From positions 7,457,563 to 7,521,562 of the forward strand of contig JAJEKV010000014.1 of NCBI GenBank assembly GCA_021234155.1: a stretch of DNA of 64,000 bases, given 5' to 3'. Position numbers and translations under genes: made by a program. This DNA comes from Isoetes taiwanensis. Its lineage: Eukaryota > Streptophyta > Lycopodiopsida > Isoetales > Isoetaceae. Below the pieces are notes generated by a model, which saw nothing but the letters and a program-made list of their open reading frames with translations, searched no databases and was not told the origin of the DNA. Shown one piece after another: positions 3,638-46,113 of this stretch (positions within the stretch are counted from its first letter, which is position 1; every line of letters begins with the position of its first letter).

Positions 3638-3664
3638 TATTCTATTCTATTCTATTCTATTCCT
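3636..3664. repeat. ATTCT pentanucleotide microsatellite
   Basis: About five consecutive ATTCT units are visible. They sit at the 3' end of the minus-strand ORF and supply its stop region. The array is repeated at about 33526-33551 in the second copy. Confidence 0.85.
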
Positions 3665-3983
3665 TGTTGCGAGTCTCCAGATCTTGTTGGGGTGGCTGCA
3701 ATGCCTCCTTGTTGGCTGAAATCTCCATAGATCCACTTGATTTGTTGGGATCTTCATCTTGCACTTCATCTGATGCCTTGTTTCCACTGGATTCAATGAT
3801 ATCACTCTCAGAGATTTTTGCAATGCAATCATTCCCTCCATTAGGATCCGAATTTGTTGCTTTCTTCCCAGTTTCAGTGCAATTTTTCAGTGCATCTTTC
3901 ACAGTTGCCTTGTGAAATTGAAATACCTTCTTGCTGCCTAGCATTAAGCTCTTTTCCTCTGCTATTCTCTTCCTTGTAGACAT
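3657..3983 (-). CDS. Small unrecognised ORF or exon, 108 aa
   Basis: The minus-strand frame starts with MSTRKRIAEEKSLML and ends at the pentanucleotide repeat. An in-frame start further upstream at 4037 is also possible. The product is hydrophilic and Ser/Asn/Asp/Glu-rich with a basic start, and looks disordered. The second copy (33541-33877) keeps recognisable stretches (DPNGGNDCIAK, DEVQDEDPNKSSGSMEIS), but with frameshifts at CAG/CTG sites. It may be an upstream exon of the minus-strand gene at 1-1169: same strand, about 2.5 kb upstream, similar composition. I do not recognise the protein and cannot place splice sites with confidence. Confidence 0.4.
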   Translation of the reverse strand: MSTRKRIAEEKSLMLGSKKVFQFHKATVKDALKNCTETGKKATNSDPNGGNDCIAKISESDIIESSGNKASDEVQDEDPNKSSGSMEISANKEALQPPQQDLETRNKE

Positions 3984-4769
3984 ATTTAGATCTCCTTTCT
4001 CACAGAAGCCCGGGCCTTTGCACGCTGAACAAATCACAAGAGTTCCCTCATAATTCTCCTATTTTCGGCACATATTCTTATACTAGTGGTCCTTGTTACC
4101 GTCAGTTCCACAACTCTAGTTTACATTCTACTTTTAGGTGCACGCCCCTCCCAGTAATCCATATGCATATGCCAGCTATATATGCATTTCCATAATTAAC
4201 TACGCTGCCATATCTGGACTGCTCATATTCGGACTGCTCAGAGGTCGTTAGGAAAAACCCTAAACCTGTTCTATTTTTTTCTTTTGCATATTTTCTATAG
4301 TTCAATTGTCAATATCCATATTTTAGTATGCGCCAATCATGCCCTTTCTTTCTCTATATGTTCCTAGGCTATTTCTGCCCTAAAATGTTGTATTCCAACG
4401 AGCCAGAACTCCATTATCCATCACACTTAATGTAAAAAATTACTATATTTGAGAAGTAAAGGCCAAGATTACTTCCTCTCAAATTATTTGAGTATGAACG
4501 GCCTGGGTGCTTGCCTCAAAACTTCCATCCATCTTTTTTGCATTAATATTCCACTTACTGACTTCATTTCCCCTTTAGAATGCTCATGTCCGTGTTATTT
4601 TTCAAATTTTCGGCCCTTTTACACGCCCTTTTATCTTGGGTTCTTCATATGGTCTAGACCATCACTTACCATGGCATATTGAGTTATAATTTGGATTCCA
4701 ATCTTATACATCCTTATTCAATGTTTCTAATGGACAATTTTCTCTTTTTTAATTAAAAATAAAATAAAA
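3984..4769. other. Non-coding stretch left of the gypsy element
   Basis: AT-rich sequence with no supported gene. It ends in an A/T-rich run at about 4749-4775, where homology to the internal region of the gypsy family begins. No LTR is visible here, so the plus-strand element lacks its 5' LTR. Confidence 0.5.
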
Positions 4770-4789
4770 AAAAAAATGGCTCAAATCCA

Positions 4790-5225
4790 CCCACTGGGTC
4801 CATTCGCGCCAAACCCGTCTGCGTCGCGAACGCAAAGCCCTTTCGCGTGAATGGACCCGAGTCCCTTGATTTTAGTCAAAATTGATCCAATTTTTGTACT
4901 TAAAGATGCTAGAATGCTTAGGACTCATCTAGAAATGCAGGGTAGCATTTAATTTTAGTTAAAAATATTAAAATCTAGCTAAGATCAACCCACTCGGATC
5001 GATTCGCGCCAAACCCTTCTACGTCGCGAACGCAGAGCCCTTTCGCGCGAATGGACTCGAGTCAGCCAAATTTCTACTTTTAGATGTCCAATTAGCATGA
5101 AATAAGTTGCTAGCTAGGTTAGAATTGATTCAAATAGACATGTTAGCATCTTACAACCCTTAGAAATGTTTACTAGTGAGCAAAATCAGCTCACTCGGGT
5201 CGATTCGCGCCAAACCCTCCTGCAC
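4790..5225 (+). repeat. Three GC-rich dyad modules, ~200-bp period
   Basis: Modules start near 4797, 4998 and 5198, separated by AT-rich spacers. The first two contain CATTCGCGCCAAACCC, a GCGTCGCGAACGC core and a closing GCGTGAATGGAC-type arm. In the first module the outer arms GGTCCATTC and GAATGGACC are complementary, and an inner TGCGT/ACGCA pair flanks CGCGA. The third module is truncated after its left arm. They lie 90-530 bp upstream of the TATA box, as enhancer-like or structured elements would. Confidence 0.75.
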
Positions 5226-5317
5226 TTCATGGTACCTCATTTGGAGACCCATAGCCTTAGAACAAAGGTCCGTTCGATCAATAATCCTTGTGCATGGAAA
5301 CCTAGGCAGCTCTAGTC

Positions 5318-5325
5318 TATATAAG
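5318..5325 (+). promoter_or_regulatory. TATA box of the internal gypsy promoter
   Basis: TATATAAG lies about 110 bp upstream of the ORF1 start codon. The same box in the same context occurs in the minus element (14226-14233). Conservation in both paralogues argues for a used promoter, although no transcript data are available. Confidence 0.6.
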
Positions 5326-5435
5326 GGGATCTCATTTGTCATTTTCCCTTCGCCAAAAGTGCTCTTACCCTCTTAGGCGATTTTCCAAGCTTCTGTCAGT
5401 TCTTCCAAGCCATCTTCTACATCTATTTCTGCTCA

Positions 5436-6936
5436 ATGGCACCCACGAACTTTGTTCAATGGTACGATAGTGCCAACCACATCCGTGATTTCCCTGCTGA
5501 AGAGGCCTTCCATGTGTTTGATCATCTCTTCGACCTCCATGCAACCCTGACTAGGACCCCTTACTACACTGATATAGTTTGCCAGTATGACCAGCAGATC
5601 TTACCCTGGGAGGTTAGCCTTCCCCCTAGGGGAAGGAAGTGGGTATCCTTAGACTCATTGAGCCAAGCCATGGGGGGGGGGGGGGGGGGGGGGGGGGAGG
5701 AGGGGATCCGAGTCAAAGGGGCAGCTGTGGGCAGGACGAGGGACATGCTTGACTACATGACTTGTAGAGCTCATAGGCATAGGTATATTTCGGCACAAGC
5801 GGCTCTCGCATTATTCATGCAGTACAAGGCAGTCAACAAGGTGGGGGAGCCTTCGATCCAGCCTTTGGACCTAGCGCTACTCGACACAAGAAGGGAGCAA
5901 AGCCACATACATGAGATCAAATCCTCAGAGTACGTGTACCATGGCGCAACATCAGGGGCACTACAGACTGAGCAGGACGATGAGCAGCTTGGGGAAGAAA
6001 ACTCAGATTGGGAGAGCAGGGAAGCAGCAAGAATGGAGAGATGCATAGCAAGACTGAATGACGAGCTTAGGCGGGCTACCGAACTACCAATCGGCATCAC
6101 AGCTTTATCACCAATAGTAATCGAAGGGGAGGAGTACATCTTGGCAAATAACATCCTCAACCTTCTATACTGCCAAGAAGAAGGGCTCAGGATCGACGAA
6201 CTCTTAGCTTAATTGCGAAAGAGCAGCAGAGTGACTGCATCGACTACGCCTATCAGGAAGTCCCAAGGGAAGTAGCGGAGCGGCACTCCTACATAAGGGA
6301 AATGTACCAGCGGCAACAACCAGTCATCCTGGAAGAGGAGTTCCAAGCCATTCAAGACAGGTTGTACAAACCAGGGAAGGGGCTGAGCACCAGCCGAACC
6401 GTCCGATCGCGGAGTATACGCGAGGGGTCCAGCAACTTGGACAGCGCAACTACAATGTGGAGGGACCATGAAGACCTTCTAGCGCTGGACGTCTATGGCG
6501 AAGCAGCTCAGAGGAAGGGCACAGGATCACAAGCGGCAGGACATAGGGGAAGAGCGCTCCGATACTACCTTCCAGTCCTCAGCCAGGGACAAATGATAGT
6601 CTTCTACAAAGAGTTCAGCCCACGAGGAGAGGAGGTCGTGGCGCTCTTAATAGCACTCGCAGGTTTCTGGCAGCACGCCAAGTTGCACAGCAACATGGAT
6701 CACATCATCCTCTTCAAGAGATCCGTGGTACTTTACAGGCTCGACTTCGCCAGGGGCCATTTAAGGGACGCACCAATGATGGTCGTCGCAGCAACAGCGC
6801 CTCCACTCCCTCCACCCCGGATGGCTCGAGCTCTCGAAGGTGGGTCAGCGAGAAACATCCTGCATAACGTAGCTTAGGGCCTCCGACTTAAAGATGTGAA
6901 GAACTTCTTCAAGTCAATAAAGGGTTCTCGAAGATG
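5436..6936 (+). pseudogene. Gypsy ORF1 (pre-Gag protein of unknown function), frameshifted
   Basis: Starts at ATG 5436 (MAPTNFVQWYDSANHI). The frame ends at 6212, where one T is missing compared with the minus element; the frame then resumes and is open from about 6215 to 6877, and a likely original stop lies at 6934-6936. The combined product would be about 490 aa. It is mostly hydrophilic with a few conserved blocks (GEEYILANNILNL, WRDHEDLLALDVYG) shared with the minus element. I know of no family for it. It precedes Gag and could be an N-terminal Gag extension joined by splicing. A run of 26 Gs at 5672-5697 distorts it locally. It is a decayed gene; the homology between two elements shows it was a real protein. 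Confidence 0.7.
5672..5697 (+). repeat. 26-base G homopolymer
   Basis: An uninterrupted run of 26 Gs inside ORF1. The duplicate copy (about 35556-35585) has GGGA-type repeats here instead, and the minus element has only a short G stretch. It may be a sequencing or polishing artefact rather than real sequence. Confidence 0.9.
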
Positions 6937-7168
6937 AACACTTTTATTTCCACATATTATTAAAATGTATAAAAATGACCTCAGTTCCATGTATTACACT
7001 ATGTTTCTCTATAATGTACAAGTCTTGTATATTAATTGCCTTAAATTGTCCTTGACCTATAATTTGAAATTTTAACATGATTTCTTTTATACCTAACAAT
7101 AATTGACTTGTAAATAAGGTTGAATAATGTACAACCTAAGTAACAACATTGATGATCAATACTTGCAG
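6937..7168 (+). other. Intron-like AT-rich gap between ORF1 and Gag
   Basis: About 230 bp of AT-rich, stop-filled sequence ends in a good splice acceptor (TACTTGCAG), after which the Gag frame is open at once (RNTGSGSQGQGRQHQW). The minus element keeps the same gap and acceptor (about 11925-12150). The donor is not clear; candidates lie in the AAGGGTTCTC stretch near 6920. An intron inside a retrotransposon coding region is unusual, but the pattern in two paralogues supports it. Confidence 0.45.
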
Positions 7169-8484
7169 CCAGGAACACCGGTTCAGGGTCTCAAGGCCAA
7201 GGCCGACAGCATCAGTGGCAACCTAGGAACTTGTTCGGCCGGGAACACGACGAAGAACAAGACATGACAGTTGAAACAGTAAATGCAAGGTTGGCTCAGA
7301 TGAGGAATCAGATGCAGCAGTTCCTACAGTGGGCAACACCACTAATGCATGCTCAAGAGTATGGACCTCTACCACCACCTCCACCACCTCCAGGAGGTGT
7401 AGACGAAGCCTCTCAGCCAGAAAGGGAAGAAAATCAGGCTGCCGAGAAGGATAGAAAGAGAAAAAGAAGAGGCAGGAGGAGTCCATCACCTTCCAGCTCT
7501 AGCAGATCGAAAACTTTAGGTGGTGGACCCGGCAGTAGCTCCGACAGTGAGTCAGACACATCGCAGGGCAGAAACAAGAACAGAAAGACAGACGACTACT
7601 AAAAGAAGGTAAACAGTGCAATGAGCAATGTCTGGAAGACAAGAAAGCTGGGACAGTTCTGGGGTAAGGACACGTCAGGTATGGAGGCCGAAGCATGGCT
7701 GGATGAGATGGAAGAATTCGGAAACTCGTATGGAATGAAAGACAAGGACATAGGTAAGGTGGCAACGACAAACTTGATAGGGCCAGCCGGAATATGGTGG
7801 AAGGGATACGCAAAATTCAACAAGTTGAGAAGAAACAACTGCAGGTTTAGAACATTCAGCAAGGCATTCTGTAAGCACTATGTCCCAAGATCCCATACCA
7901 ACAGACAAATACAGCAGTTCTATAGGTTGGACCAGGATAATTTGTCCGTGGCTAAGTATACGGAGGAGTTCATGAGGTTGAGATTGAATGTCCCAAGGAT
8001 AACAGAAAGGCAAGCAGTAGATGGGCATATCGAGGGCCTCAATAGCAACATCAAAAGGCTAGTGAGGGCACTCAACCCAAGAACAGTTGGGGAAGCAGAA
8101 GATAAAGCTCTAAGCTTAGAAGAGGCACCAGTGACCCCAGCACTTCCATACAAAGGAAAGATAGCAGGGCAATATCAGACTAGACAGGCGGCCTCTACGC
8201 CAGTAGGAGGCCAGTACCAAGGAAAAGCTCAGGGGAAGTCTTTTGGAGACCGCAAGCCACATGAAGGATCAGGAGGCAAGTCAATTAAATTTCTCTTAGA
8301 CAGCATTCCAAAGGAGAAAAGACAGGAATGCATAGAGAAGAAACTGTGTTTCCTGTGCTTCCAGCCAGGGCACCGAACGCACAATTGGCCTTTCATCATG
8401 CAGGTGGCACTAGCTAAACTTGGGAATCACCAGCTGAGGGAGATGAAGAAGAAGGCGACCAACAGGAACCCCAAGACTTCATAG
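7169..8484 (+). pseudogene. gag: Gypsy Gag polyprotein, one premature stop
   Basis: Gag packages the element RNA. The frame is open from the acceptor at 7169, contains a proline run (PPPPPPP), an Arg/Ser-rich stretch and a long helical capsid-like part (KLGQFWGKD, YAKFNKLRRNN), and ends at 8484. A zinc knuckle lies near 8344-8388: CFLCFQPGH matches CX2CX4H, but the last cysteine is replaced by Trp (HNW), so the knuckle is damaged. A TAA at 7600-7602 interrupts the frame where the minus element has CAA (Gln). The next ORF (protease) is in another frame, as expected for frameshift or separate translation. Confidence 0.85.
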
Positions 8485-8566
8485 AAGGTGAGTGTAAAAT
8501 TTGTGCAGCCATTGAGTCAGGGGAGGTTATGAATCAGTCTACAGTCATCTCGGCAGAAGGAACATC

Positions 8567-8890
8567 GATAGCAAGCCATATATAGTCTTGATAGACACAG
8601 GTAGTTCCCATAACTTTGCCTCTCCAAGGCTTACTGCTCTCATGAAGAATAAGATCTTGAAGTCCAAGCCAAGGCCAGTCAGCATGGCAAGTGGCGCCAT
8701 TCGCCACACTAAGGGGAGGAGAATCAATTTTGACATAGATCTTAGTGGAAGCAAGTGGCCGATGGGTGCCGAAGTGATGGACATCGGGAAATATGACCTC
8801 ATAGTAGGAATGGAGTTCCTAAGGCCAGCAAAAGCTATGATAGATTGCGACCACAACGAAATCTCTATGACAGCGCCAGACGGCAATTGA
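8567..8890 (+). pseudogene. Gypsy aspartic protease domain
   Basis: Retropepsin-like domain that would process Gag-Pol. The catalytic motif IDTGSSHNF is intact, and the later flap/dimer-side motif YDLIVGMEFL matches the gypsy pattern. It ends with TGA at 8888-8890, directly followed in the same frame by the reverse transcriptase part, so protease and RT were one ORF. The TGA is consistent with C-to-T change of a CGA Arg codon, though no second copy of this site exists to test it. Confidence 0.8.
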
Positions 8891-10043
8891 TACATAGTAA
8901 AAGGTAAGAAGGTAACTTCAGCTATGCAATGTATCTCTATGAAGCAGTTGAGGAAAAGCATAATAAGAAACAGGGTGGATTACATCTTGAGGCTAGAGGC
9001 AGTTGACCCAAGTAAAGCAAAGGGAAGTGAGTCAAGTGGAAATCAGTTGCCTAAGCCAATAGCAAGGCTCATTAAGGAGTTTAATGATGTATTCACGGAT
9101 GAAATCCATCAATTACCACCTTATAGGGGTGTAGAGTGTGAAATCACACTAGCTCCAGATGCTAAGCCTACTGGCAAGGCACCTTATAGGATGGGCACTC
9201 CAGAGCTGGTAGAGCTCAAGAAGCAGTTGCAAGAACTGCTTGAGCTCGGATTCATAAGAGCAAGCGTGTCTCCTTTTGGAGCACCCATCCTTTTCGTCAA
9301 GAAGAAAGACGGAAGTCTAAGGATGTGCATTGATTATCGTCAGCTTACTAAGCAAACGATAAAGAATAAATATGTTCTGCCAAGGGCAGACGACTTGATG
9401 GACCAGCTCCAGGGAGCAAAAGTCTTCTCCAAAATTGACCTAAGGTCGGGATACCATCAGATAAGGATCAAGGAAGAAGACATCCACAAAACTGCCTTCG
9501 GAACGCGATATGGGCACTATGAGTTCATGGTAATGCCTTTCGGCTTATCGAATGCCCCAGCAACCTTCATGCGCTTGATGAATAATATCTTCATAGAATT
9601 CTTAGATGAATTTGTCATCGTATTTTTCGATGACATCCTAGTCTATAGCAAGACCATAGAAGAGCATTGTCAGCACTTGAGAAGGGTTTTGGAGAAGCTA
9701 ATGTGGCATCAATTGTATGACAAGCTTTCTAAGTGCCACTTTGCAACAGGCCGAGTGGAGTATTTGGGTCATGTGGTGTCATCTCAAGGGATCTCCACTA
9801 ATTCGGCAAAGATTGAAGTCATAGTGGATTGGCCGGCACCAAGGAATATAAGAAGCTTCATCGGCTTGGTAGGGTATTATCGGAAGTTCGTGAAGGACTT
9901 CGCTAGGTGGGTGTCCCCTCTGTCGGACCTCACCAAGGATAAGAAGGTGAAGGATTGGACAAAGCATTGGCTCGAGAATGTCCAAGCCTCCTTTGAGAAG
10001 CTCAAAGAGGCACTAACCACAGCACCGGTCCTCATCCTACCGG
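8891..10043 (+). pseudogene. pol: Gypsy reverse transcriptase, C-terminus and RNase H missing
   Basis: Reverse transcriptase copies the element RNA into DNA. Conserved blocks appear in order: a PYRMGTPE entry block, [49 protein letters not shown], and the catalytic [10 protein letters not shown] (gypsy form of YxDD). The thumb and connection region ([24 protein letters not shown]) follows. At about 10044 the protein is cut within the linker to RNase H and joined to an LTR scrap. The RT core is intact, but the element lacks RNase H and integrase, so it cannot be autonomous. Confidence 0.9.
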
Positions 10044-10194
10044 CGCCTAGCCGTCAGTCTACCTCCCTATGAGTCTGAGCCTTGGGTAGGAGCTCTCATA
10101 TTTTACGGCATATGTTTATCTCTGTTGTAGCTATGGATATATGGATGTGCTACCCCTCGGGGTGATATGATGTGTTGTTATTGCTAGTTCTGAC
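10044..10194 (+). repeat. LTR scrap in plus orientation
   Basis: This 151-bp stretch is the reverse complement of about 16993-17143 within the LTR at 16803-18458, with few mismatches. It is therefore a piece of the family's LTR in the sense of the plus element, fused to pol on its left and to the RNase H of the minus element on its right. It marks a rearrangement that removed the plus element's 3' pol and most of its LTR. Confidence 0.85.
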
Positions 10195-11316
10195 ACCTTC
10201 CTTCTTATAATGCTTGAAGGTCTCCCTTTCCTTATCTGTTCTTGCCTCTTTGGAGAGGCTTGCCCATACTTCTTTAAAGTCACCGTCTGATGGCAACGTT
10301 TCTTCAATCCTCTTGCCATACTCACTTGAGAGAGTCGATATGGTATTGCAATGAGTTCTTGTATCAAATGGCCTCCTCGAGAGGGCATCTGCGACTACAT
10401 TCAATTTGTCAGGCTTGTAGACTATTTCGAAGTCGTACTCTTCGAGAAATTCCATCCACCTCCTTTGTCTTAGATTTAGGAGTGGTTGCGTGAAGATGTA
10501 CTGGAGACTTTGATGATCTGTATCTAATTGAAACTTTCTTCCCAACAAATAGTATCTCCAGATTCTCAAGGCCCTCACAATGGCCAAAAGCTCTTGGTCA
10601 TGAGTCGAGTAGCATTGCTCTACATCATTCATCTTCTTGGAGTCGTATGCGACTACCCTTCCCTCCTACATGAGGACTGCTCCGGTTGCTAGCTTGCTAG
10701 CATCTATTGCCACAAGCTTATCCTTGCTTGGATCTGGTAGGATGAGAACCGGTGCTGTGGTTAGTGCCTCTTTGAGCTTCTCAAAGGAGGCTTGGACATT
10801 CTCGAGCCAATGCTTTGTCCAATCCTTCACCTTCTTATCCTTGGTGAGGTCCGACAGAGGGGACACCCACCTAGCGAAGTCCTTCACGAACTTCCGATAA
10901 TACCCTACCAAGCCGATGAAGCTTCTTACTTCGCCCATATTCCTTGGTGCCGGCCAATCCACTATGACTTCAATCTTTGCCGAATTAGTGGAGATCCCTT
11001 GAGATGACACCACATGACCCAAATACTCTACTCGGCCTGTTGCAAAGTGGCACTTAGAAAGCTTGCCGTACAATCGATGCCGCCTTAGCTTCTCCAAAAC
11101 CCTTCTCAGGTGCTGACAATGCTCTTCTATGGTCTTGCTGTAGACTAGAATGCCATCGAAAAATACGATGACAAATTCATCTAATAATTCTCTGAAGATA
11201 TAATTCATCAAGTGCATGAAGGTTGCTGGGGCATTCGATAAGTCGAAAGGCATTACCATGAACTCATAGTGCCCATACCGCGTTCTGAAAGCAGTTTTGT
11301 GGATGTCTTCTGGTAG
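10195..11316 (-). pseudogene. pol: Gypsy RT C-terminal part and RNase H, defective
   Basis: Starts at the deletion junction ([15 protein letters not shown]) and runs through RT to RNase H. The RT catalytic motif reads FFDGILVYS, so the second catalytic Asp is replaced by Gly. A TAG at 10666-10668 interrupts VLM*EGRVVAYDSKK, where family members have Gln. RNase H follows (HDQELLAIVRALRIWRYYL, DTDHQSLQYIF, ADALSRRPFDT) and is cut at 10195. Inactive by several independent lesions. Confidence 0.9.
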
Positions 11317-11318
11317 GC

Positions 11319-11924
11319 TCATCCTATCAAGTTTGCCGTTGCCACCTTACCTATGTCCTTGTCTTTCATTCCATAAGAGTTTCTGAATTCTTCCATCTCA
11401 TCCAGCCATGCTTCGGCCTCCATACCTGACCTGTCCTTACCCGAGAATTGTCCCAGCTTTCTTGTCTTCCAGACATTGCTCATTGCACTGTCTACCTTCT
11501 TTTGGTAGTCGTCTGTCTTTCTATTCTTGTTTCTACCCTGCAATGTGTCTGACTCACTGTCGGAGCTACTGCCGGATCCGCTATCTGAGGTCTCCGATCT
11601 GGTAGAGCTGGAAGGATATGGACTCCTTCTGCCTCTTTCTATCCTTCTCGGCAACCTGATTTTCTTTCCTTTCTGGCTGAGGGGCTTCGTCTATACCCCC
11701 TGGAGGTGGTGGAGGTGGTGGTGGAGGTCCATACTCTTGAGCATGCATTAGTGGTGTTGCCCACTGTAGTAACTGCTGCATCTGATTCCTCATCTGAGCC
11801 AACCTTGCATTTACTATTTCAACTGTCATATCTTGTTCGTCGTCGTGTTCCCGGTCGAACAAGTTCCTAGGTTGCCACTGGTGCTGTCGGCCTTGGCCTT
11901 GAGACCCTGAACCGGTGTTTCTGG
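11319..11924 (-). pseudogene. gag: Gypsy Gag N-terminal part, truncated by deletion
   Basis: Follows the conserved splice acceptor at 11925-11927 and reads like the plus-element Gag (proline run, Arg/Ser stretch, KLGQFSGKDRSGMEAEAWL). It ends at VATANLIG, where about 1.7 kb corresponding to the rest of Gag, the protease and the RT N-terminus has been deleted. At the position of the plus element's premature TAA this copy has CAA (DDYQKK), which shows the ancestral codon. Confidence 0.85.
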
Positions 11925-13572
11925 CTGCAAGTGTTGGTCATCAATGTTGTTACTTAGGTTATACATTGTTCACCTTATTTACAAGTCAATTATTGTTAGT
12001 TATAAAAGAAATCATGTCAAAATTCCAACTTATAAGTTAAAGACAAGTTATGGCAATTAATATACGAGAGTTATACATTATATCGAAGTATGTAGTAATA
12101 CATGGAACTGAGGACATTTTTATACATTTTAATAATATATGAAAGCAAAAGTGTTCATCTTCGAGAACCCTTCATTGATTGAAGAAGTTCTTCACATCCT
12201 TGAGTCGAAGGCCCTTGCCGACGTTCCGCAAGATGTTCCTGGAAGATCCACCTTCGAGAGCTCGATCCATTTGAGGTGGAGGGAGTGGAGGTGTTGTTGC
12301 CGCAACGACCGTCATTGGTGCGTCTCTCAAGTGGCCCCTGGTGAAGTCGAGACTGTAGACGACCACGAATCTCTTGAAAAGGATGATGTGATCCGTGTTG
12401 CTGCTCAACTTGGCATGCTGTCCGAAGCCTGAGAGCGCTATGAGGAGCGTCACGGCTTCCTCTCCTCGCAGGCTGAACTCCTTGTGAAAGACTATCATCT
12501 GCAACTGGAAGATAGTATCGAAGCGCCTTTCCCCTTGCTATGGCCTGGGTACCTGTGCCCTTTCTTTGAGCCGCTCCACCGTAGACGTCCAATGCTAGGA
12601 GGTCTTCATGATCCCTCCATGTGGTGGTTGCACTATCCAGATTGATGCTGCTGGATCCCTCCCACATACTTCGCGATCGAACAGTTCGGCTAGAGCTCGG
12701 TCCCTTCCCTGTTTATACAACATGCTTTGGGTTTCTTGAAATTCTTCCTCTGGGATGATTGGCTGCTGTCGATGATAAATTTTCCTTATGTGTTCGTAGG
12801 CGGCGATGTCGGACATCGTCTCGCCGGCATAGGAGTGTCGCTCTGCTACTTCCCTTGGGACTTCCTAATAGGAGTAATCGATGAAGTCGCTCTGTTATTC
12901 CTTTGCAATTAAACCTAAGAGCTCATCGATTCTGAGCCCCTTTTCTTGGCAGTGTGGGAGGTTGAGGATGTCATTTGCCAATATGTACTCTTCCCCTTCA
13001 ATTACTATCGGCGATAGAGCTATGATGCCGATTGGTGGTTCGTTGGCCCGCCTGATGTCATCATCATGCCTTACTATTCGCCTCTCCATTCTTGCCGCCT
13101 CTCTGCTCTCCCAATCTGGGTTTTCTTCCCCTAGCTGCTCATAATCCTGCTCAACCTGGAATTGCTCCCGATGCCGTGCCATGGTACTCGTACTCTGCTG
13201 ATTCAATCTCATGGATCTGTCCTTGGTCTATTCTTGTATTGAGTGGTGCTAGGCCCAAGGGCTGGATCGAAGGTTCCCCCACCCTGTTGACGGCCCTGTA
13301 CTGCATAAATAAGACGAGGGCCGCATGCACCGAAACATACCTATGCCTGTGGGCCTTACAACTCATGTAATCTGACATATCCTTCGTCCTGTCCCACAGC
13401 TGCCCCTTGACTCTAGATCCTCCCCCAATGGCTTGGCTCAGCAATTCTAGAGATACCCACCTTCCTCCTGCGAGGAGAGGAAGTTAGCTAAGATCTGCTG
13501 GTCATACTAACAAACTATATCAGTATAGTAAGGGGTTCTGGTCAGGGTTGCATGAAGGTCAAAGAGATGATC

Positions 13573-13730
13573 TGTAACGTTCCTAACCGACATGCCCTTA
13601 ACCAACTGGGCAAAACCGTCTAGACTTTTATGAGTAGTCGCTTCTACCCATTTATGCCGGTGTCTCGGGAACGCCCCACAGGCACATTCAAGGTTCGAAT
13701 ACTCGAGCAGTCTACCATGGGCCCGTTACA
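13573..13730 (-). repeat. TRIM 3' LTR
   Basis: 158 bp with TGTAACG and CGTTACA ends. Reading on the minus strand it follows the polypurine tract. It contains a stretch (13591-13615) that on the minus strand reads TTGCCCAGTTGGTTAAGGG, close to a tRNA-type A box. Confidence 0.9.
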
Positions 13731-13854
13731 GTCTCTCCCACTAGAACTATGCTTGTCCTCGAGCATCCAAGGCTATACCATGTCACAATGATTACCAAGT
13801 CTTTGCAAATTACCCATGTATATAGGCACCCATGGAGACTCGAACTCGAGACCT

Positions 13855-13866
13855 GCTCTGATACCA
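13855..13866 (-). promoter_or_regulatory. TRIM primer-binding site (tRNA-iMet)
   Basis: The minus strand reads TGGTATCAGAGC two bases downstream of the 5' LTR end. This is the standard plant initiator-Met tRNA primer site. Confidence 0.92.
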
Positions 13867-13868
13867 AC

Positions 13869-14026
13869 TGTAACGTTCCTAACCGACATGCCCTTAACCA
13901 ACTGGGCAAAACCGTCTAGACTTTTATGAGTAGTCGCTTCTACCCATTTATGCCGGTGTCTCGGGAACGCCCCACAGGCACATTCAAGGTTCGAATACTC
14001 GAGCAGTCTACCATGGGCCCGTTACA
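13869..14026 (-). repeat. TRIM 5' LTR
   Basis: 158 bp, identical by eye to the 3' LTR at 13573-13730, which implies a young insertion. The other side abuts the TGATC target duplication. Confidence 0.9.
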
Positions 14027-14225
14027 TGATCAAACACATGGAAGGCCTTTTTAGCAGGGAAATCACGGATGTGGTTGGCACTGTTGTACCATTGAACAAA
14101 GTTCGTGGGCGCCATTGAGCAGAGATAGATGTAGAAGATGGCTTGGAAGAATTGACAAAAGCTTAGAAAATCGCCTAAGACGGTGAGAGCAAGTTTGGTG
14201 AAGAGAAAATGGCAAATGAGATCCC

Positions 14226-14397: not shown

Positions 14398-14900
14398 GTC
14401 AAACTAGGTCGACTCGGGTCACTTTGCACGAAAGGGACTTGCGTCGCGAACACAGAGGCATTTGGCGCGGAGTGACCAAAGTGGGCTGATTTCTGTGCAA
14501 AACAAACATTTCTAAGGGTTGTAAGATGCTAAAATGCCTATTTGGATCAATTCTAGACTAGCTAGCAGCTTGTTTCATGCTAATTAGACATCTAAAAGTG
14601 TAAGTTTGGGCGACTCGGGCCACTTCGCGCGAAAGGGGTCTGCGTCGCGAATGCAGGGACATTTGGCGTGGAGTGACCGGAGTGCGTCGATCTTGGCTTA
14701 CTTTTTGATATTTTTAGCAGAATTTAAGTGCTACAATGTATTTCTAGATGATTTCTAAGCATTCTAACATCTTTTAGTACAAAAATTGGATCAATTTTAC
14801 CTCAAATCAAGTGACTCGGGTCACTTCGCGCGAAAGGTGTCTGCGTCGCGAATGCAGAGGCGTTTGGCGCGGAGTGACCGGAGTGGGTCGATCTCGACCT
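14398..14900 (-). repeat. Three GC-rich dyad modules, ~205-bp period, minus element
   Basis: Modules near 14399, 14608 and 14813, each about 75 bp, separated by AT-rich spacers that also align with each other (TTTCTAGATGATTTCTAAGC-type). Each has outer arms that pair: GGTCACTTCGCGC with GCGCGGAGTGACC in the third module. The core is GTCGCGAA with a flanking GCG/TGC. The plus element has different arm sequences that still pair, so complementarity is kept while bases change. Confidence 0.75.
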
Positions 14901-15124
14901 AATTTTTGATTTTTTTGAGACAAAATTTTATACAGATTAAGCAATTAGGAGTATTCTAACTATGATGCAAAAGATTATATTACAATTCAATTTGTATAAG
15001 AACACTTGTATGTTAATAAGAGATTAATTTACAGAAAAAAAGGACACTTTTATAGATATGGAGTAGAAATGTACAGACAAAAGCTTATATGTATATAATT
15101 TAGTTTATGTATAAAATTGGCTCC

Positions 15125-16239
15125 TCAAGGCTTCTCCTTGCGGATTCTCCTCGCCAAGTGGAGGTCCTTGGGCATGACTGTCACCCGCTTGGCGTGGATT
15201 GCACAGAGGTTGCCTTTTTCAAAAAGCTGCACCAGCTCCGCTTCTGCCGTCTCCTGCAGGGACCGGACCGTCAGTGGGGTCACCCTGTAATTTGTCCAGA
15301 ACTCCTGCATGATTTCTCGCAGAAGTCGCCCGAATGGCGCCTTCCTGATGAGGAGATTAGTGCACTGTTGGAAGTGCCTAATCTCCCGGAACACATGGGC
15401 GTGCTTAGAGTTGGACCCGTGGTGCACCTTCTTTGGCGGCTCTGGTCTTGGTGGTGGCGGCTTGGACTAGTTCTTCGGCCGCCCACCTCCAACATACTTT
15501 TGTACATTTTGCTTGCAATACCAGTCATTGTACCTCTTCCATCTGCGGAGGTACTCTTGGTACACCTTCTTGCGACGCTGGAATTCACGATCTTGTTTTA
15601 ACATGAATTCCCGCTCGCCCACCTTCTGCTTCTTGATCACCTTAGGTGCTTAGGCCACTTAGGGTATGGTGGGCGGGTGTCGGGGTTTGATGGCTCCCCG
15701 GCATCTTCTTCAGGCTCTTCTTCCATTTGCCCTGCTCCTTCACTCTCCTCCTCTTCCTCCTCCTCATCGGTAGGGTCTCGATGAGGTTCCTGAATGTGGA
15801 CCGTCCCTCTTGGGCGGTCCTGGTCCCTCTTGGACCGCTTCTCTCTCCGTCTCGCCTCCTTCTTCCTCTCCCTCTTCTTCCTCTGGGCCCTCTCCTCGGG
15901 CCACTCTGCTACCTTCTCCTTGCCCTTCTTTTTGCCCGACGTGCCAACCTCCTGCTCCTGCTGGTGCTGCTCCTGTTGCTCTTGCTGCTGCTGCTCCTTC
16001 TCCTAGTCGGACGACCGACCGAAGTGGACGGTCTCGTCCGTCCGCTGTGTCTCCACGGAGGAGCTGCTCTGGGCTTCCTCCTGGGAGGCGTGGAAAGTGT
16101 CGTCTGTGGAGCTAGACGACTCTCCCTCCCTCCCCCGTCGAAGGTGCTCAGGCACTTGTTTTCCTCCACCCGCCGCCTTTGCCATCGAGGGTGTGCGCCC
16201 GGGGCTGTATTTTCTGGCTGTGCATTTGGTGTGCGCCAT
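15125..16239 (-). pseudogene. Histone H3-like (possibly CENH3-like) ORF carried inside the gypsy element
   Basis: The minus-strand frame begins MAHTKCTARKYSPGRTP, matching the canonical H3 start (MARTKQTARKSTGGKAP), including Lys4 and Lys9. About 180 low-complexity residues follow: Ser/Thr, a Gln/Glu run, Lys/Arg/Glu, acidic. After a basic RRKKVYQEYLRRWKRYND stretch comes an H3 fold: [19 protein letters not shown], then [41 protein letters not shown] and LARRIR. By hand about 55 of 87 positions equal canonical H3, with no gap. Loop 1 has canonical length, unlike most CENH3; REIRHFQ is CENH3-like. Lesions: TAG at 16003-16005, a 1-nt shift near 15640-15650, and TAG at 15467-15469 (CAG in the second copy). 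Intronless, between primer site and internal TATA. Whether it was ever expressed is unknown. Confidence 0.85.
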
Positions 16240-16789
16240 GTCTTATGGTTAAGCAAACTGATTACGTTAAGTTGGTTATCAAGAAAGGAGGTTTAAGCAA
16301 GGTTAGGGAGAAAATGGGGTGGCAAGAAGATATTAAAAAAGGAAGATGATCTAGGGAATATTCTCCTACCATTAATAGCCCTATTAATTAGCCCCCCTTA
16401 TTAATTACCCCACTATACATACTTATTAATGTATGGCTGATGCTGTATTATACTATGAAATTCGAATTTTTCTAATAGTTTGAAGTGTCAATTATGAATT
16501 TATGTCATTTTTCACCCGGGTCTCGGATTGGGATGATTCTTCGACCCATTTTGGGTGAGATGCCGATGCATAATTTCAACTCCAATTTTATTAGAATGTT
16601 AATTTGAGTCATTCTTTTTTCCCCATCTAACAACTTAGCCTATTCTTATGGACCCACTACCTAGGAGAAAAATTTCCCCCCTATTTTCGAGGTTCCATTG
16701 TGGAAATTTTCATTCCACACCCTATTAGGCCTGTTAGACTACTTACTAGGGACATGGTCAGTGCTAGTTCTTGGTCAACCAAGAACATC
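16240..16789 (-). other. Untranslated leader of the minus gypsy element
   Basis: 550 bp between the primer-binding site and the H3-like ATG. AT-rich, without a supported ORF. The short ORFs seen here are not conserved between the two 30-kb copies. Confidence 0.55.
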
Positions 16790-16801
16790 GATCTGATACC
16801 A
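16790..16801 (-). promoter_or_regulatory. Primer-binding site of the gypsy element
   Basis: The minus strand reads TGGTATCAGATC one base inside the LTR end. It matches initiator-Met tRNA except for one base (GATC instead of GAGC). It fixes the element's orientation and the inner LTR boundary. Confidence 0.85.
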
Positions 16802-16802
16802 T

Positions 16803-18458
16803 TGTGACGCTCCCTACAAAATATACGGCGCCCGACCGTACATTCCGTAGAAAATCTCCCATCCAGTCCTTCGACCGCACGGGCCCTCCATCTATCCTGC
16901 ACTCCAGGGTATCCCTAGTGCGGGAAGGGGACACGAAGGTGTCTTGGGCGCCCTTCCCCTATGGGCTCCTATCACAGCGGAAGCATAAACAACGTCAGAA
17001 CTAGCAATAACAATACATCATACTACCTTGAAGGATAGCACATCCTCATATCCATAGCTACAACAGAGATAAATATATGCCGTAAAACGTGAGAGCTCCT
17101 ACCCAAGGCCCAGACTCATGGGGAGGTAGACTGACGGCTAGGCCTCAAGAAAGAGCAGACCGAGTCATAACAATGGCGGGGCTGGCTATAGACAATGGCT
17201 AGGGTTGACCAATCCATCCGCCCCTCCTGTGCATACTTTACAGATAGGCTAAATTGGGCTCTAGCATGACTCTAGCCTTCCGGATACGCAATCTCATGGC
17301 ATCACCCATCAAGACTACTCCGAGTTGCATCTCCCGGGTCCGTTGAGGCAGGAAGGGTTGCATATCCCCTTTCCCGGGGTCTAGAGGTTCCTCGGGCGGC
17401 TAGAGAATCGTGACGACACATGATTCATCCCCGACTTAATCCCCCGAAACAAGAGCCAGGCCAACACCTGCAGCTCTTGAGAGGCAGGGCGACACCATTG
17501 CCCTAGGAGGTGTCAGACCCATGTCCGGCCCACATGATATGACCGGCCATAAGCTTAGCCCGCTATGGGGTCCCCAGTAGCCACGCTCAGCAGGGACCCT
17601 CCCTCTGTATCTCCTCTAGCACCGTTATGTCGTGCTGAGTCACATCATAGCCCCCGTAGCCCGGTGGGTTCCTATGCACAGGCCGCATAATAATAGGAAC
17701 TAAAGGGTCTAACTAGGAGCATTACTAAGTAAGGCTACTAGGTCTCTACCCCAATACAAGAGGAGCAAACATGATCAACTATCATCACACAACTTCATAT
17801 CATGATAATCATCAGAATAACATCTAACCTAATCATACATATCTAACTTACAGTTAGGTTCGTTGATTAGGGTTCAAGATGTTGAATAAGGGTTCTAGGA
17901 TGGCTCTACTCTAGATGCGAAATACTAACTCATCTGGAGTGCTAACTTCCAGACGAACTACTAAGAACACTACTCCAAATACCTGCTCCCGAAGCACTCC
18001 CTCCCATTCCTGGCATCTCCATCCATGGTACTCGAAGTTGTCGAAGCCGCGCTCACTCCAAGATCGTACACGCACTATGGGGGCTGCTGCACTAGGCTAT
18101 GCCACAACAAGCGGCCTTCAAAGCGGGGTTTCGAAAAGCGAAGAAGGTTCCCAGGGTGTTAGGGCCAGGAAAAGAGGTCTAAAGTTAGGGTTTAGGTTAA
18201 TATAGGTTAGGGTCCACATGGGATGACACGTGGCTCCACATGGCTCCAATGGGACATGGCCATGTGTCGGTTGCCCAATAGGATAAGGCTATGTGGAAAA
18301 TGGGCCTTATCCTAAGGTTATCTAAGTTATATACTTAACTTAGATATGCACTCACGCCACTTCCTAAGGTATACAAGGCTACGAAGTAGACTTGTATAGT
18401 GACGTAACAGAACCGAAAATATACGTATTTATAGCATATATTTCCCTGGAACGTCACA
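16803..18458 (-). repeat. 5' LTR of the minus gypsy element, 1656 bp
   Basis: Bounded by TGTGACG and CGTCACA, 7-bp perfect inverted ends beginning TG and ending CA. The inner end abuts the primer-binding site. Part of it recurs in inverted orientation at 10044-10194. Near its outer end two hairpins are visible: 11-bp arms 18319-18329/18336-18346 and 8-bp arms 18370-18377/18391-18398. The duplicate is 46674-48326. No matching 3' LTR is present in the window. Confidence 0.85.
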
Positions 18459-20261
18459 ATGCCATATTGTCTCGAGGAAGGGCCCCACATCGACGAGTAA
18501 TGTCACAACTACGCCATCAACAAGTAGATAACTTCATCGACTAGTCACATCAAGAGTTTCTAAAAGATGGGACTGTATATATCTCCTAGGAAGGGCAACT
18601 ATCTCAAATATACTGACCCATAATAGTATCAGATTTAGACTTCAAGCAAAGATGCTTTGAATAAGGAGGAGTTACAAGCCAGCAATGATGGGCTACTAAG
18701 GAATAGGAATATAACCAGACCGCAACCAACTTCTTCCTCGTCACCCCCAACACTTCAAAGCAGCTACATCAGCCTCGATAGCACCATCTCAAATCATGAT
18801 GATCTTCCACCTTAGAGATTGAAGGTCAAACACCAACAAGAAGAGGCATCAGGGGGGACCAAATACCAGCATTACTAACTGATCAGCCAAGATTATAGTC
18901 CCTGCACATGAATGCAAAAAGATTTCTCTCAGGAAGAGAAGTTGCACAGTTAGAAGTGGTAAAGCACTCAACATTGTCATCAACAGTATAAAAGCAGCAT
19001 GCAACTGCCAAGATATAGAATCGAATCGACAAGGTCAATACAACAGTATCAATTCAGGAGTTAGAAGAATCATCCTCAAATCTTGTAACCTCCAAGCCAG
19101 ATGAGTCAACATGAAAGATTCTAGAGAGAAGAGAACATTACCTTCAAGCTTTTGAGATGCGACACCAACACTCTAGATTGTCCACTACATCTCCAAGTCT
19201 ACTAACATGGATACCTTTAATGAAGGAAGTCAACATCAACATTGAGGACGCGAAAAGTCAGAATATATTCGACAGAAAGAGCAGGGCACATGAATCATTA
19301 TACAACAACTTCTAGAAGATCAGATTTTTCAACAAAATTGTGGATATCGTCTTGCTACCCCAATGACTAACGAGTACACCAGCTTTTAGCAAGCTAGAGG
19401 GGTTATCAAATAGTTGAATCTCTTAGAATTATGCGTGATAACATCCATGATGGGATTGGGACGAAATTACAAGTAGATTTTGTCATTTCTTTTAGAAAGG
19501 ATGGACCCAAGAATTGAGCAAAGCTTCAAGGATTGGGAAGAAAAACGTAGGGAGTACTAAAACTATATACATTTGCTGACAGATATCCAACATATTAGAA
19601 CCTCTTCGTGAGCTTGATCACCTCGCTAAGCAGGATTCAATAATAGGATAACCGTCGACCATGTGTATGACGAGTACCTCCACAATATAAGGAATAATCC
19701 GACCCAATGAAGAGAAGCAATCTAACAAGTTTGGCCAACTTCTTAGATGGCATCAATTCAAAGATGGGACTATTTCAAGAGGACAATAACTAAGAAGAGG
19801 GAGATCCTAGAGTATAGATTACATCTAAAACAGCAGCTGTGGTAGAAGTGCAAGAATATCTTCAAACAACAAGGGCACATCAGAAGAGTCTAGTAGATAG
19901 ACATAAAACTCCTCGACAGTTTGTGGGAGATAAAGTTTGGCTCATGTAAAGGTCAAGCAAGCAAAGCTCTGCATCAGCAATTGTAGAAAACCTGCTCCAA
20001 GATAAGCGGGGCCTTTTAAGATTGTCAAGCAAATATGGAGCCAGTCATAAGCTTGACTCCCCTGCTCATCCAAAAAGTTCACAAGGTCCACGTGAGCCTA
20101 TTTAAGAGGCATAAGATGGAGCTCCAGATGTAACAAGTATCCGGCAAGCTATCCAGCAAGCAATGCAGCAGAGTGCATCGCAGCAAAAGAGTGAGGCTGA
20201 GAAAGCAATTGATAAGGTATTGAAGGACACCAAAAGAGAAGTGTTCACAGGTGAGAACACA
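18459..20261 (+). mobile_element. Degenerate LTR-retrotransposon pol remnant
   Basis: Mostly stop-riddled plus-strand sequence. One part, around 19830-19950, reads like the end of a gypsy integrase: EVQEYLQTTRAHQKSLVDRH followed by KTPRQFVGDKVWLM, resembling the usual ...YADRHRR...GDKVWL pattern. A later stretch (about 20130-20260) is Gln/Lys-rich. The remainder is not recognisable. It is nearly identical in both 30-kb copies (48327-50135), with one base difference at a CAG site. Confidence 0.55.
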
Positions 20262-20690: not shown

Positions 20691-22044
20691 ATGATTCACC
20701 CGATGGCTATGATTCCGGCATCTTTTGGAAACCCTAGTTGCATTTCTGTGGATCAAACAACTGCATTTTGGACGCCCGAAAAGGTAGACCCTAAAGCTGT
20801 CTTGTTTCCTTTGATCTTTTTTGCATTTTTTTGCCTTTATCCGGCTCATGCATGCTTCTTTTTGTAGGTCGAAATGAGGTTTGCAAGCACTATTGAGGAA
20901 TTTCAGGTTTACAGATTGCTTCCAAATGAAGGCAGAGATCCAGAAACTTTAACTTGGGCTGATTGCCCCACATCAGATTTTCTTAGTGTGTGGAATCGTG
21001 AAGTGAAAGACAATAAGATCAAGCTCCACCAGGTGAGGCCAGAATTTGCAGATGATTTGCATGATTTGGTACACAAGGTTTATCGAAAAGGCTTAAAAAT
21101 AAGGAAGCTAGGGGCGGTCTTTGCTAGAGCTTTTGCATGGCGGCATACTCCAATGGCACTTGCTCATCCTGCTAAATTTATAGTGAATTGGGCTAGATTT
21201 GCATGGAATAGAATGCGACTTTCATGAGAAATACCCAAAAAAAGCGATATGGAAGAAATAAATTTGAAGAATGTTGCTTTTCGCTATTTCATCTTTAGAG
21301 AGGCGAGACTTAAATGTCTGAATGATGCGCTTGCTTTATTAGAGCTTGAACTCAAAGAAAAGCAAACTGAATTGGTCGATTGTGAATGGAATTTTGCAAG
21401 GGTATGACCTTGCGGCTACATCAATTTCATTAGATATACGAGAAATTAAGAACGATCTACAAAGCTTGAAAGATATTTGCCCAGATGAAGATGCGACTTT
21501 GAAGCAAAAATCGATGAAGAATGTGCACTAGGTCTTTCCACGCTCACCATTTTGAAGAAAAAAAAGAGGCGGACATTGGCCCGGATATAGAAGCACGGAT
21601 AAGACTAAGTGCATTAATTACTTATAAGCGGGAAAAGCAAGATGATCTGAAAACCAAACTAGCAAACCTGCAACATTTGAGGTCTTCATTCCTTACCACC
21701 ACATTGATCAGGCCTTCTCCTGGAAATTGGACCGTTGTTGACGATACAAGTGGATGTGTAGTTTGTGGCATGGCATTTAGTATCAATTTTGCCATGCATG
21801 TACAGCTCCAATGTGGACACAAGTTCCACTTATGGTGCTTCCAGAAGTGCATGCAGAACTTGCAATGTAATGTTTGCAACCTAGAGCGCCAATGAGACTT
21901 GTATTGGTTTGGGTTCACGTAAATTTTGTACCTAACGTGGAGGATGAAGAAGATACTGAGACTGTGGCCACTAAAGGTACATGTAGTCATATTAACGATG
22001 AAGTTGTTGAAAATGACATTAAGGTCTTAGAGGATTACATATAG
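20691..22044 (+). pseudogene. Coiled-coil RING-H2 protein of the DNA transposon, copy 1 (error-laden)
   Basis: Same gene as 50566-51923. Exon 1 is 20691-20783 and exon 2 starts at 20868 after a GT-AG intron. Compared with copy 2, frameshifts occur where copy 2 has CAG or CTG (for example CGA for CAG near 21083, GCG for CTG near 21240). The RING part is readable here without a break: CVVCGMAF, LQCGHKFHLWC, CNVC. The frameshifts are probably sequencing errors, so the underlying gene may be intact. Confidence 0.6.
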
Positions 22045-22420
22045 ATTTGGTTTCAAATGGTTCTAATGTAATTTTTTTTTTTTTTTGTTAAGTGCCAAAT
22101 ATGCCATGTGGTCACTTTGAACATGCCTCAGGCGCTAGGACATGCCAACAGGGTAAGAATGCCATGTGGCGCGCCTCAATCATGCCACGTGGCTAGAAAA
22201 TGACATTAAGGTCTTAGAGGATTACATATAAATTTGACCACATGGTTGATTTGGTTTCAAATGGTTCTAATGTAATTTTTTTTTTGTTAAGTGCCAAATA
22301 TGCCATGTGGTCACTTTGAACATGCCTCCAGCGCTAGGACATGCCAACAGGGTAAGAATGCCATGTGGCACGCCTCAATCATGCCACGTGGCTAGAAAAT
22401 GACATTAAGGTCTTAGAAGC
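22009..22420 (+). repeat. Tandem duplication at the 3' end of the RING gene
   Basis: A unit of roughly 190-200 bp, starting at the last codons (AAAATGACATTAAGGTCTTA), occurs twice, followed by a partial third start at about 22395. It contains the stop codon, a T-run and the short repeated motif GCCAxxTGGC/GCCACGTGGC. Present in copy 2 at 51889-52290. Confidence 0.8.
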
Positions 22421-44992: not shown

Positions 44993-46113
44993 TCAAGGCT
45001 TCTCCTTGCGGATTCTCCTCGCCAAGTGGAGGTCCTTGGGCATATTTGTTGCCACCCTTGGCGTGGATTGCCATGAGGTTGCCCTTTTCAAAAGCTGCAC
45101 CGGCTCTAAAACGCCGTCTCTGCGAGGGGACCCGGACCCGTCGGTGGGGTCACCACGTAATTTGTCGAGAACTCCTGCATGATTTCAGCGAGTCGCCCGA
45201 ATGGCGCCTTCCTGATGAGGAGATTAGTGCACTGTTGGAAGTGCCTAATCTCCCGGAACACATGGGCGTGCTTAGAGTTGGACCCGTGGTGCACCTTCTT
45301 TGGCGGCTCTGGTCTTGGTGGTGGCGGCTTGGACTGGTTCTTCGACGCCCACCTCCAACATACTTTTGTACATTTTGCTTGCAATACCAGTCATTGTACC
45401 TCTTCCATCTGCGGAGGTACTCTTGGTACACCTTCTTGCGACGCTGGAATTCACGATCTTGTTTTAACATGAATTCCCGCTCGCCCACCTTCTGCTTCTT
45501 GATCACCTTAGGTGCTTAGGCCACTTAGGGTATGGTGGGCGGGTGTCGGGGTTTGATGGCTCCCCGGCATCTTCTTCAGGCTCTTCTTCCATTTGCCCTG
45601 CTCCTTCACTCTCCTCCTCTTCCTCCTCCTCATGGTAGGGTCTCGATGAGGTTCTGATAATGGACCGTCCCTCTTGGGTGGTCCTGGTCCCTCTTGGACC
45701 GCTTCTCTCTCCGTCTCGCCTCCTTCTTCCTCTCCCTCTTCTTCCTCTGGGCCCTCTCCTCGGGCCACTCTGCTACCTTCTCCTTGCCCTTCTTTTTGCC
45801 CGACGTGCCAACCTCCTGCTCCTGCTGGTGCTGCTCCTGTTGCTCTTGCTGCTGCTGCTCCTTCTCCTAGTCGGACGACCGACCGAAGTGGACGGTCTCG
45901 TCCGTCGGCCAGCTATGTCTCCCGCGGAGCTGCTCACGGGCTTCCTCACAGGGGCGTGGAAAGTGTCGATGCGTGGAGGCTAGGCGACTCTCCCTCCCCT
46001 CCCCGTCGAAGGTGCTTTCGAGGCACTTGTTTTCCTCCACCCGCCCGCCCTTTGCCGCCAGGGTGTGCGCGAGGGAACATATTTTTTCTGGCATTGCATT
46101 TGGTGTGCGCCAT
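44993..46113 (-). pseudogene. Second copy of the histone H3-like ORF
   Basis: Counterpart of 15125-16239. The central part ([19 protein letters not shown]) and the basic segment are intact. The Gln-stop at the position of 15467 is CAG here, showing the ancestral Gln. The first stop (SSD*EKEQQQ) and the frameshift near the acidic stretch are shared by both copies, so they are real lesions. The last third of the H3 fold is disturbed by indels at CAG/CTG sites. Confidence 0.8.

Follow-up and report, generated by a model that had tools for sequence, protein, structure and literature searches.

A histone H3-type open reading frame as a regular module of a Ty3/gypsy chromovirus family in the lycophyte Isoetes taiwanensis

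Capture of histone H3 by mobile elements is already known from fungal hAT DNA transposons, at least as described in the accessible parts of two reports (PMC3538342, PMC6710886). The hAT transposons of Pyrenophora tritici-repentis carry H3L, comprising 26 genes, for which the authors suggest drift (PMC3538342); H3-carrying hAT elements have also been described in Pseudocercospora fijiensis and its relatives, where the captured copies are inactivated by RIP and 94% resemble the third exon only (PMC6710886). In plants, Gypsy elements of Phalaenopsis carry an AlkB m6A demethylase, and 15 atypical domains were reported in the LTR elements of 121 angiosperm genomes, with no histone among those described in section 12 of that paper (PMC9289625). 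A review of additional ORFs in plant LTR retrotransposons names no histone in the available portion of its text (PMC7264820), and the word 'histone' does not occur in the main text of the Isoetes taiwanensis genome paper (PMC8566536). The original prediction made for the locus described here, from its sequence alone, stated that no gypsy family with a histone was known, and for plant LTR retrotransposons this was borne out: in the open-access literature, partly available as extracts and mostly exclusive of subscription papers, no histone gene in such an element was found.

The present locus resembles each of these systems in part, as far as the available text of the sources allows comparison. 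Like the H3L of Pyrenophora tritici-repentis, it is a multi-copy H3-like gene on a mobile element, has insertions in the N-terminal tail, and encodes a protein that matches neither H3 nor CenH3 completely; unlike that fungal DNA transposon, the carrier is a plant LTR retrotransposon and the gene bears signs of purifying selection. The Pseudocercospora fijiensis system, a DNA transposon with RIP-inactivated copies, likewise differs from the present LTR element. With the AlkB-carrying elements of Phalaenopsis, the locus shares the setting of a plant Ty3/gypsy element whose extra ORF is a regulatory gene taken up from the host, but the protein is a different one. Other additional ORFs of plant LTR retrotransposons are common to all or most copies of a family (PMC7264820), and the present one may be so too; unlike those, it encodes a histone and is placed between the primer-binding site and gag.

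The window, that is, the whole stretch of 64,000 nucleotides that was analyzed, contains on its minus strand, in this order, an LTR, a primer-binding site (PBS), a leader, the H3 ORF, 201-bp repeats, ORF1, gag, reverse transcriptase (RT) and RNase H. The features are as follows, with counts referring to the related copies described below:

16804..18459, minus strand: 5' LTR (TGTGACG...CGTCACA) of 1656 bp, with terminal inverted repeat I4; the same LTR occurs in relatives
16790..16801, minus strand: PBS, with TGGTATCAGA at 16792-16801, directly after the 5' LTR
16240..16789, minus strand: leader of 550 bp from the PBS to the H3 ORF; upstream of H3 in most of 47 copies
15125..16239, minus strand: whole H3-like ORF, with two in-frame stops and one net frameshift in the window copy
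16210..16239, minus strand: H3 N-terminal tip MAHTKCTARK; tip start present in 33 of 47 copies
15467..15637, minus strand: basic/aromatic linker preceding the fold; recognizable in 46 of 47 copies, no Pfam match
15125..15391, minus strand: H3 histone fold, C terminus and stop (Pfam PF00125, PDB H3, AlphaFold2 helices)
14411..14916, minus strand: three repeats spaced by 201 bp upstream of ORF1; in 13 of 17 10-kb copies
12155..14115, minus strand: ORF1 region, encoding a protein without an assigned family; split by a nested small LTR element at 13572-14026
11323..11937, minus strand: gag region, by homology to the inverted copy, whose gag ORF matches Pfam Retrotrans_gag
10195..11346, minus strand: RT and RNase H (Pfam RVT_1, RT_RNaseH)
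4785..10194, plus strand: inverted partial copy of the same family (repeats, ORF1, gag, RT), joined to an LTR piece at 10045-10194
44993..46113, minus strand: second copy of the H3 ORF, within a 30-kb near-duplicate

The PBS type, TGGTATCAGA, is presumably the complement of the initiator tRNA. The position predicted for the H3-like ORF, between the PBS and ORF1, was confirmed, with the PBS (16792-16801, minus strand) lying directly after the LTR (18459-16804). The RT/RNase H region ends at 10195 and abuts the inverted partial copy; the H3 region is absent from this copy (4785-10041), which starts at the 201-bp repeats. Only the 5' LTR of the element was found in the window, not a 3' LTR, and a Pfam scan of the ORF1 pieces gave no match above the cut-off. 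The small TRIM-like LTR element nested in ORF1 (13572-14026) has identical 159-bp LTRs, a PBS of TGGTATCAGAGC and the target duplication TGATC. Elsewhere in the window, a 199-bp tandem repeat was seen beside an ORF with a RING-finger match below the Pfam cut-off (22044-22417 and 21518-21892), and Rfam gave no match at the gathering threshold over window positions 1-30000.

The fold at the end of the ORF is beyond doubt an H3 fold. The segment at 15125-15463 (minus strand) matched Pfam Histone at 3.5e-28 and PDB H3 chains at 1.6e-29, and an AlphaFold2 model placed helices at residues 19-32, 41-55, 63-83 and 98-107, in H3 order, with a mean pLDDT of 72. Ungapped alignment gave 55 identities in 86 positions (against an H3 sequence with the core of the PDB match), in agreement with the 55 of 87 counted by hand beforehand. 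In an alignment of 22 H3 rows, one of which was the window, 26 columns were invariant and 24 nearly invariant; the window protein departed at four of the latter, that is, at 4 of 50 overall, and its RPGT motif, which in H3 lies at the DNA entry site, was replaced. As predicted, the ORF begins with MAHTKCTARK and keeps Lys4 and Lys9. Two other predicted properties had to be corrected, since the region between tip and fold is not one open frame but is interrupted by the two stops and the net frameshift, and the long basic/acidic insert, given as about 180 residues, is replaced by a tip-to-fold spacing of about 270 residues, made up of a low-complexity part and then the linker of about 57 residues. 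Proteins from the five open copies are 369-389 aa long, compared with about 135 for H3; this length and the replaced RPGT motif indicate an H3-type protein that is not a canonical H3.

Protein database searches with the core and with the long form gave 879 and 228 matches, of which 240 listed ones were compared. The linker had no Pfam match and was shared beyond chance by none of these 240 (best E 0.49). Six unnamed database proteins (P0139, P0164, P0173, P0176, P0149 and P0225) combine an H3 tip, or an upstream extension and tip, with a long insert and an H3 fold; P0139 stands for 156 members and P0164 for 24, and these proteins are possibly repeat-borne H3 in other organisms. A viral collection returned pattern matches, yet no encoded relative of the window fold, P0164 or P0139. 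A gag search of the protein database yielded 465 candidates and none at E <= 0.001, which indicates that the host lineage is thinly represented in the database searched.

The original prediction described the ORF as decayed in the window. The stops and the frameshift are indeed read there; however, taking them as decay in the plant is unsafe, because base-calling errors are likely in this stretch. The window contains a tandem near-copy of 30 kb (1-28716 versus 29875-58617, 92% identity), whose H3 ORF (44993-46113) is garbled mainly at CG/CHG sites. Mismatches between the copies affect 28.7% of positions at CG/CHG sites, versus 2.4% at positions at least 16 nt from such a site, and the share of CG/CHG sites that differ, per kilobase, is 67-81% over 1-9000 and 2-5% over 18001-20000. 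Within the H3 ORF, 3 of 66 CG/CHG sites differ in the middle (15341-16040), and 17 of 30 and 16 of 27 at the ends; one of the two in-frame stops is seen in one 30-kb copy only, the other in both. The differences are not mainly the product of deamination, because transversions and indels are common among them, rather than mainly C-to-T changes. Real divergence was rejected as the main cause, given the mismatches at CG/CHG and the many transversions and indels. The differences likely resemble nanopore base-calling errors, and the near-copy is likely a poorly polished stretch, an unpolished haplotype or a false duplication. According to the genome paper, an ONT v9.4.1 flow cell was used, and the assembly comprises 1658.30 Mb in 204 scaffolds and 909 contigs (PMC8566536). 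The CG/CHG-clustered differences are perhaps an indirect methylation map.

The I. taiwanensis genome (1,658,258,908 bases, 1110 contigs) was searched with a 112-residue core of the protein. The search gave 9506 first-look candidates. Scoring covered 150 of them, including the place of the window itself; every one had E <= 1.9e-56 and 79-100% identity, and 26 contained an open frame of 370 aa or more without a stop. Forty-seven loci were read, the 30 top rows as stretches of 3.3 kb and every fourth row from 85 to 149 as 17 stretches of 10 kb. A single open frame from the tip to the end of the fold was found in 5 of the 47, so intact copies exist, as the original prediction had allowed. Among the 17 10-kb copies, the LTR lies upstream of H3 in 13, the exact PBS follows the LTR in 9 (a tenth, L042, has it in a second unit), the 201-bp repeats are present in 13, the start of ORF1 lies downstream in 16, a long gag stretch occurs in 11 and RT/RNase H in 8; all of LTR, PBS, H3, ORF1, gag and RT are present and colinear in 6. 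One locus, L042, has two H3 cores within 10 kb and represents tandem or nested H3-carrying elements.

The search for full-length elements that had been proposed yielded two, both among the 17, after the 3' sides were fetched; each has an LTR pair, a target duplication and the H3 ORF inside, between PBS and gag. The copy L047/L048 measures 13,158 bp, with LTRs 96.3% identical and TATCC duplicated on both sides, and L038/L049 measures 13,520 bp, with GATTC on both sides, LTR parts that are 99.0% and 92.8% identical, and an insertion in the 3' LTR. Most mismatches between paired LTRs fall near CG/CHG (45 of 55 and 65 of 88, respectively), and LTR-based ages would therefore be overestimates. The L048 polyprotein contains the domains H2C2, rve, SH3_Tf2-1 and Chromo, and this integrase and chromodomain identify the element as a chromovirus, putatively Tekay/Del-like. 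The assignment to Ty3/gypsy rests on the LTR pairs and target duplications of two copies, the PBS directly after the 5' LTR, gag, RT and RNase H in the window, and integrase and Chromo in one relative, L048. The family is thus like plant chromoviruses in gag, RT, RNase H, integrase, chromodomain and PBS type, and unlike them in having an H3-type ORF and a further ORF1 upstream of gag. We are highly confident that the H3-type ORF is a regular PBS-proximal module of a Ty3/gypsy chromovirus family and not a chance insertion.

Copies were also sampled without regard to H3. A 20-mer spanning the LTR end and the PBS occurs 1459 times in the genome (721 + 738) and not at all in the reversed control, and 12 of the first 100 listed junctions were read, in steps of seven from row 4 to row 81, with row 60 lying in L041. 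A tip or fold was found at 8 of these 12 junctions, a fraction to be read with the possibility that the 20-mer is common to several families. Six were clear (L041, L051, L053, L054, L057 and L060), the fold of L053 lying just beyond the stretch first read and L054 having no visible fold, and two were weak traces (L050 and L058). At the other four (L052, L055, L056 and L059), no H3 was found within about 1.8 kb of the PBS. Locus L053 belongs to another lineage, in which an exact MARTKQTARK is followed by an insert of unrelated sequence, a related linker and a diverged, truncated fold.

A second genome search employed the near-canonical H3 query P0054 and gave 8899 first-look candidates, of which 150 were scored. 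Rows 1-15 were full-length host-type H3 places; among the other 135, five span nearly the whole query at 64-71% and 130 span the fold at 74-84%, and in 44 of the 135 an open frame runs for 400 aa or more without a stop. Side-by-side reading showed no place common to this list and that of the 112-residue core (150 scored in each). Two of the 135, L062 and L063, picked for their long open frames, were read with about 2.3 kb upstream. Both share the LTR end and PBS of the window family; their first long ORF has a different N-terminal region and closes with an H3 fold that is 85% identical to canonical H3. Neither has a MARTK tip; L063 has MAITK. Lineages besides the window family that share its LTR end and PBS carry an H3 tip or a near-canonical H3 fold. 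In a tree of 33 rows, an analysis that had been suggested, the window family groups with the long-branched L053 (96/88), and the second class, L062 and L063, falls among canonical H3s.

The proposed comparison of dN and dS among element copies was performed on the fold, and in the 47 copies gave a median dS of 1.24 and a summed dN/dS of 0.056, a value in which dN is lowered because the copies were taken from the top of an H3 protein-similarity ranking. By the same measure, other genes in these loci gave 0.21-0.22 for RT (8-9 copies), 0.14 for RNase H (7 copies), 0.17 for gag (12 copies) and 0.18 for ORF1b (27 copies), placing the fold below RT, RNase H, gag and ORF1 in copies chosen by H3 similarity. 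Variants shared between copies were distributed 41/19/80 over the three codon positions, and singletons 11/16/5. The linker and the tip, both outside the query, are less constrained than the fold, with raw pN/pS of 0.33 (46 copies) and 0.37 (35 copies), respectively, and pS near saturation in each case. The folds of L040 and L041 combine a pS of 0.84 with a pN of 0.04. Distances in H3 followed those in ORF1b (r 0.63, n=26, 0 of 9999 permutations as high) and, weakly, those in gag (r 0.36, n=11, 172 of 9999), and no such agreement was seen for RT (r -0.06, n=8) or RNase H (r -0.17, n=7). In nine long copies (L035, L037, L038, L040, L041, L043, L044, L046 and L047), LTR and leader differ by about 0.15, silent sites of H3 by 0.74 and those of the other genes by 0.48-0.63; candidate causes of the low LTR and leader divergence are a mosaic history of the 5' end and constraint acting on the LTR.

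The 33 tips found among the 47 copies keep Lys4 in 32, Thr6 in 32, Thr3 in 31, Lys9 in 29, Arg2 in 27 and Arg8 in 25, counts that are biased toward tips because at least 5 of 10 tip residues defined the cut. Genome sites encoding MARTKQTAR number 401, and only 155 of these have the Lys9 codon next, indicating that Lys9 is not universally kept or that many sites are broken; the exact tip, with CGN for both arginines, is encoded at 155 sites, host H3 genes included, and at none in the control. Judged from these substitution patterns, the H3 ORF is very probably under purifying selection.

How the gene entered the element bears on three readings in which it would have another identity or no function. 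The pseudogene alternative was to hold if the H3-like ORF occurred only here or away from a flanking element. A retrocopied host pseudogene lying by chance in or next to the element would fit the absence of H3 from the inverted partial copy in the window, but it has next to no probability and was rejected, because open-frame relatives elsewhere lie between PBS and gag, and many copies, two of them with target duplications, keep the ORF in the same place with respect to LTR, PBS and ORF1. Capture of an H3 or a CENH3 transcript had been predicted; capture of an H3 is supported, and the CENH3 part did not hold. The hint of CENH3 came from REIRHFQ and the long tail, and the EIRHFQ and TNLLI motifs are indeed as in Arabidopsis CENH3. 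However, loop 1 of the window fold has the length of H3, as the prediction itself had observed, the fold scores 265 to H3 versus 166 to Arabidopsis CENH3, with 55 of 86 versus 43 of 84 identities, and the 33-row tree does not connect the fold with CENH3, which sits on a long branch of uncertain placement. A CENH3 origin was rejected on loop length and score, and a captured CENH3 used to reach centromeres is extremely unlikely. A passenger gene, with the element having picked up a host H3 transcript once and multiplied it to no advantage, is in turn highly improbable: gene transduction by LTR elements is known, according to the accessible text of a review (PMC7264820), and the GC3 of the H3 ORF (0.65-0.73) exceeds that of gag, pol and ORF1 (0.50-0.58), yet such a passenger would not be expected to show a fold dN/dS of 0.056 at a median dS of 1.24, shared variants concentrated at third codon positions, and diverged lineages that keep tip or fold.

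Overall, the best explanation, to which we give an even chance, is a selected family H3-type ORF that would act as an H3 variant in element chromatin. Nucleosome-type action of this variant on the element's own chromatin is proposed tentatively, on the pattern of sequence conservation. The H3-type protein would be translated from the first ORF of an RNA driven by the LTR and would pair with host H4 through its H3-H4 and H3-H3 surfaces, the H3 residues that face H4 or H3 being known. Nucleosome-like particles would then form on the DNA of the element itself or where it inserts; they would lack the RPGT motif of the DNA entry site and most of the remaining H3 tail, and the tip, on its long tether, would be displayed to H3K4/K9 enzymes and readers. 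The likely gain would be that new copies are silenced less strongly, or that the integrase acquires a handle on chromatin.

A nucleosomal H3 variant is favored because both tip and fold are constrained, which neither of two other functional readings would require, as a mimic could dispense with the fold and a packaging protein with the tip. A soluble mimic acting off DNA, whose tip occupies the silencing H3K4/H3K9 methyltransferases and readers and whose fold serves stability, import or chaperone binding, is rather unlikely. It would account for the exact MARTKQTARK in 5 of 47 copies and near-exact tips in others, followed by residues 11-36 that are unlike H3, and for the same tip being kept with a different insert in another lineage (L053/L061); however, the fold, which a mimic need not keep, is the most constrained part measured, the near-canonical-fold copies L062 and L063 were both read without the MARTK tip, and the Lys9 codon is missing from most of the 401 pattern sites. 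Packaging, in which the H3 fold and charged tail would condense element RNA or cDNA in a virus-like particle or preintegration complex, agrees with the long basic/acidic insert and with the PBS-proximal position in the genomic RNA, but the element has its own gag, and the kept H3 tip would be left unexplained; we consider this reading distinctly improbable.

Plant transposons are silenced via H3K9 methylation, and chromoviruses read chromatin via chromodomains. That numerous old copies keep an H3-type ORF in working order suggests a chromatin protein employed by the element itself, and a selected H3 gene in a chromovirus makes it testable whether a mobile element specifies nucleosomes on its own DNA, and likewise whether this provides escape from H3K9me2/CHG silencing or a docking site for the element's integrase. 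In such genomes, counts of H3 genes and results from antibodies against the H3 tail could also be distorted by element-encoded H3. It may be, at somewhat less than an even chance, that a chromovirus group several lineages deep, with more than 1000 LTR-PBS junctions in one lycophyte genome, encodes nucleosome-forming H3 variants; if so, a retrotransposon would have been building part of the chromatin on its own DNA for long enough that silent sites became saturated.
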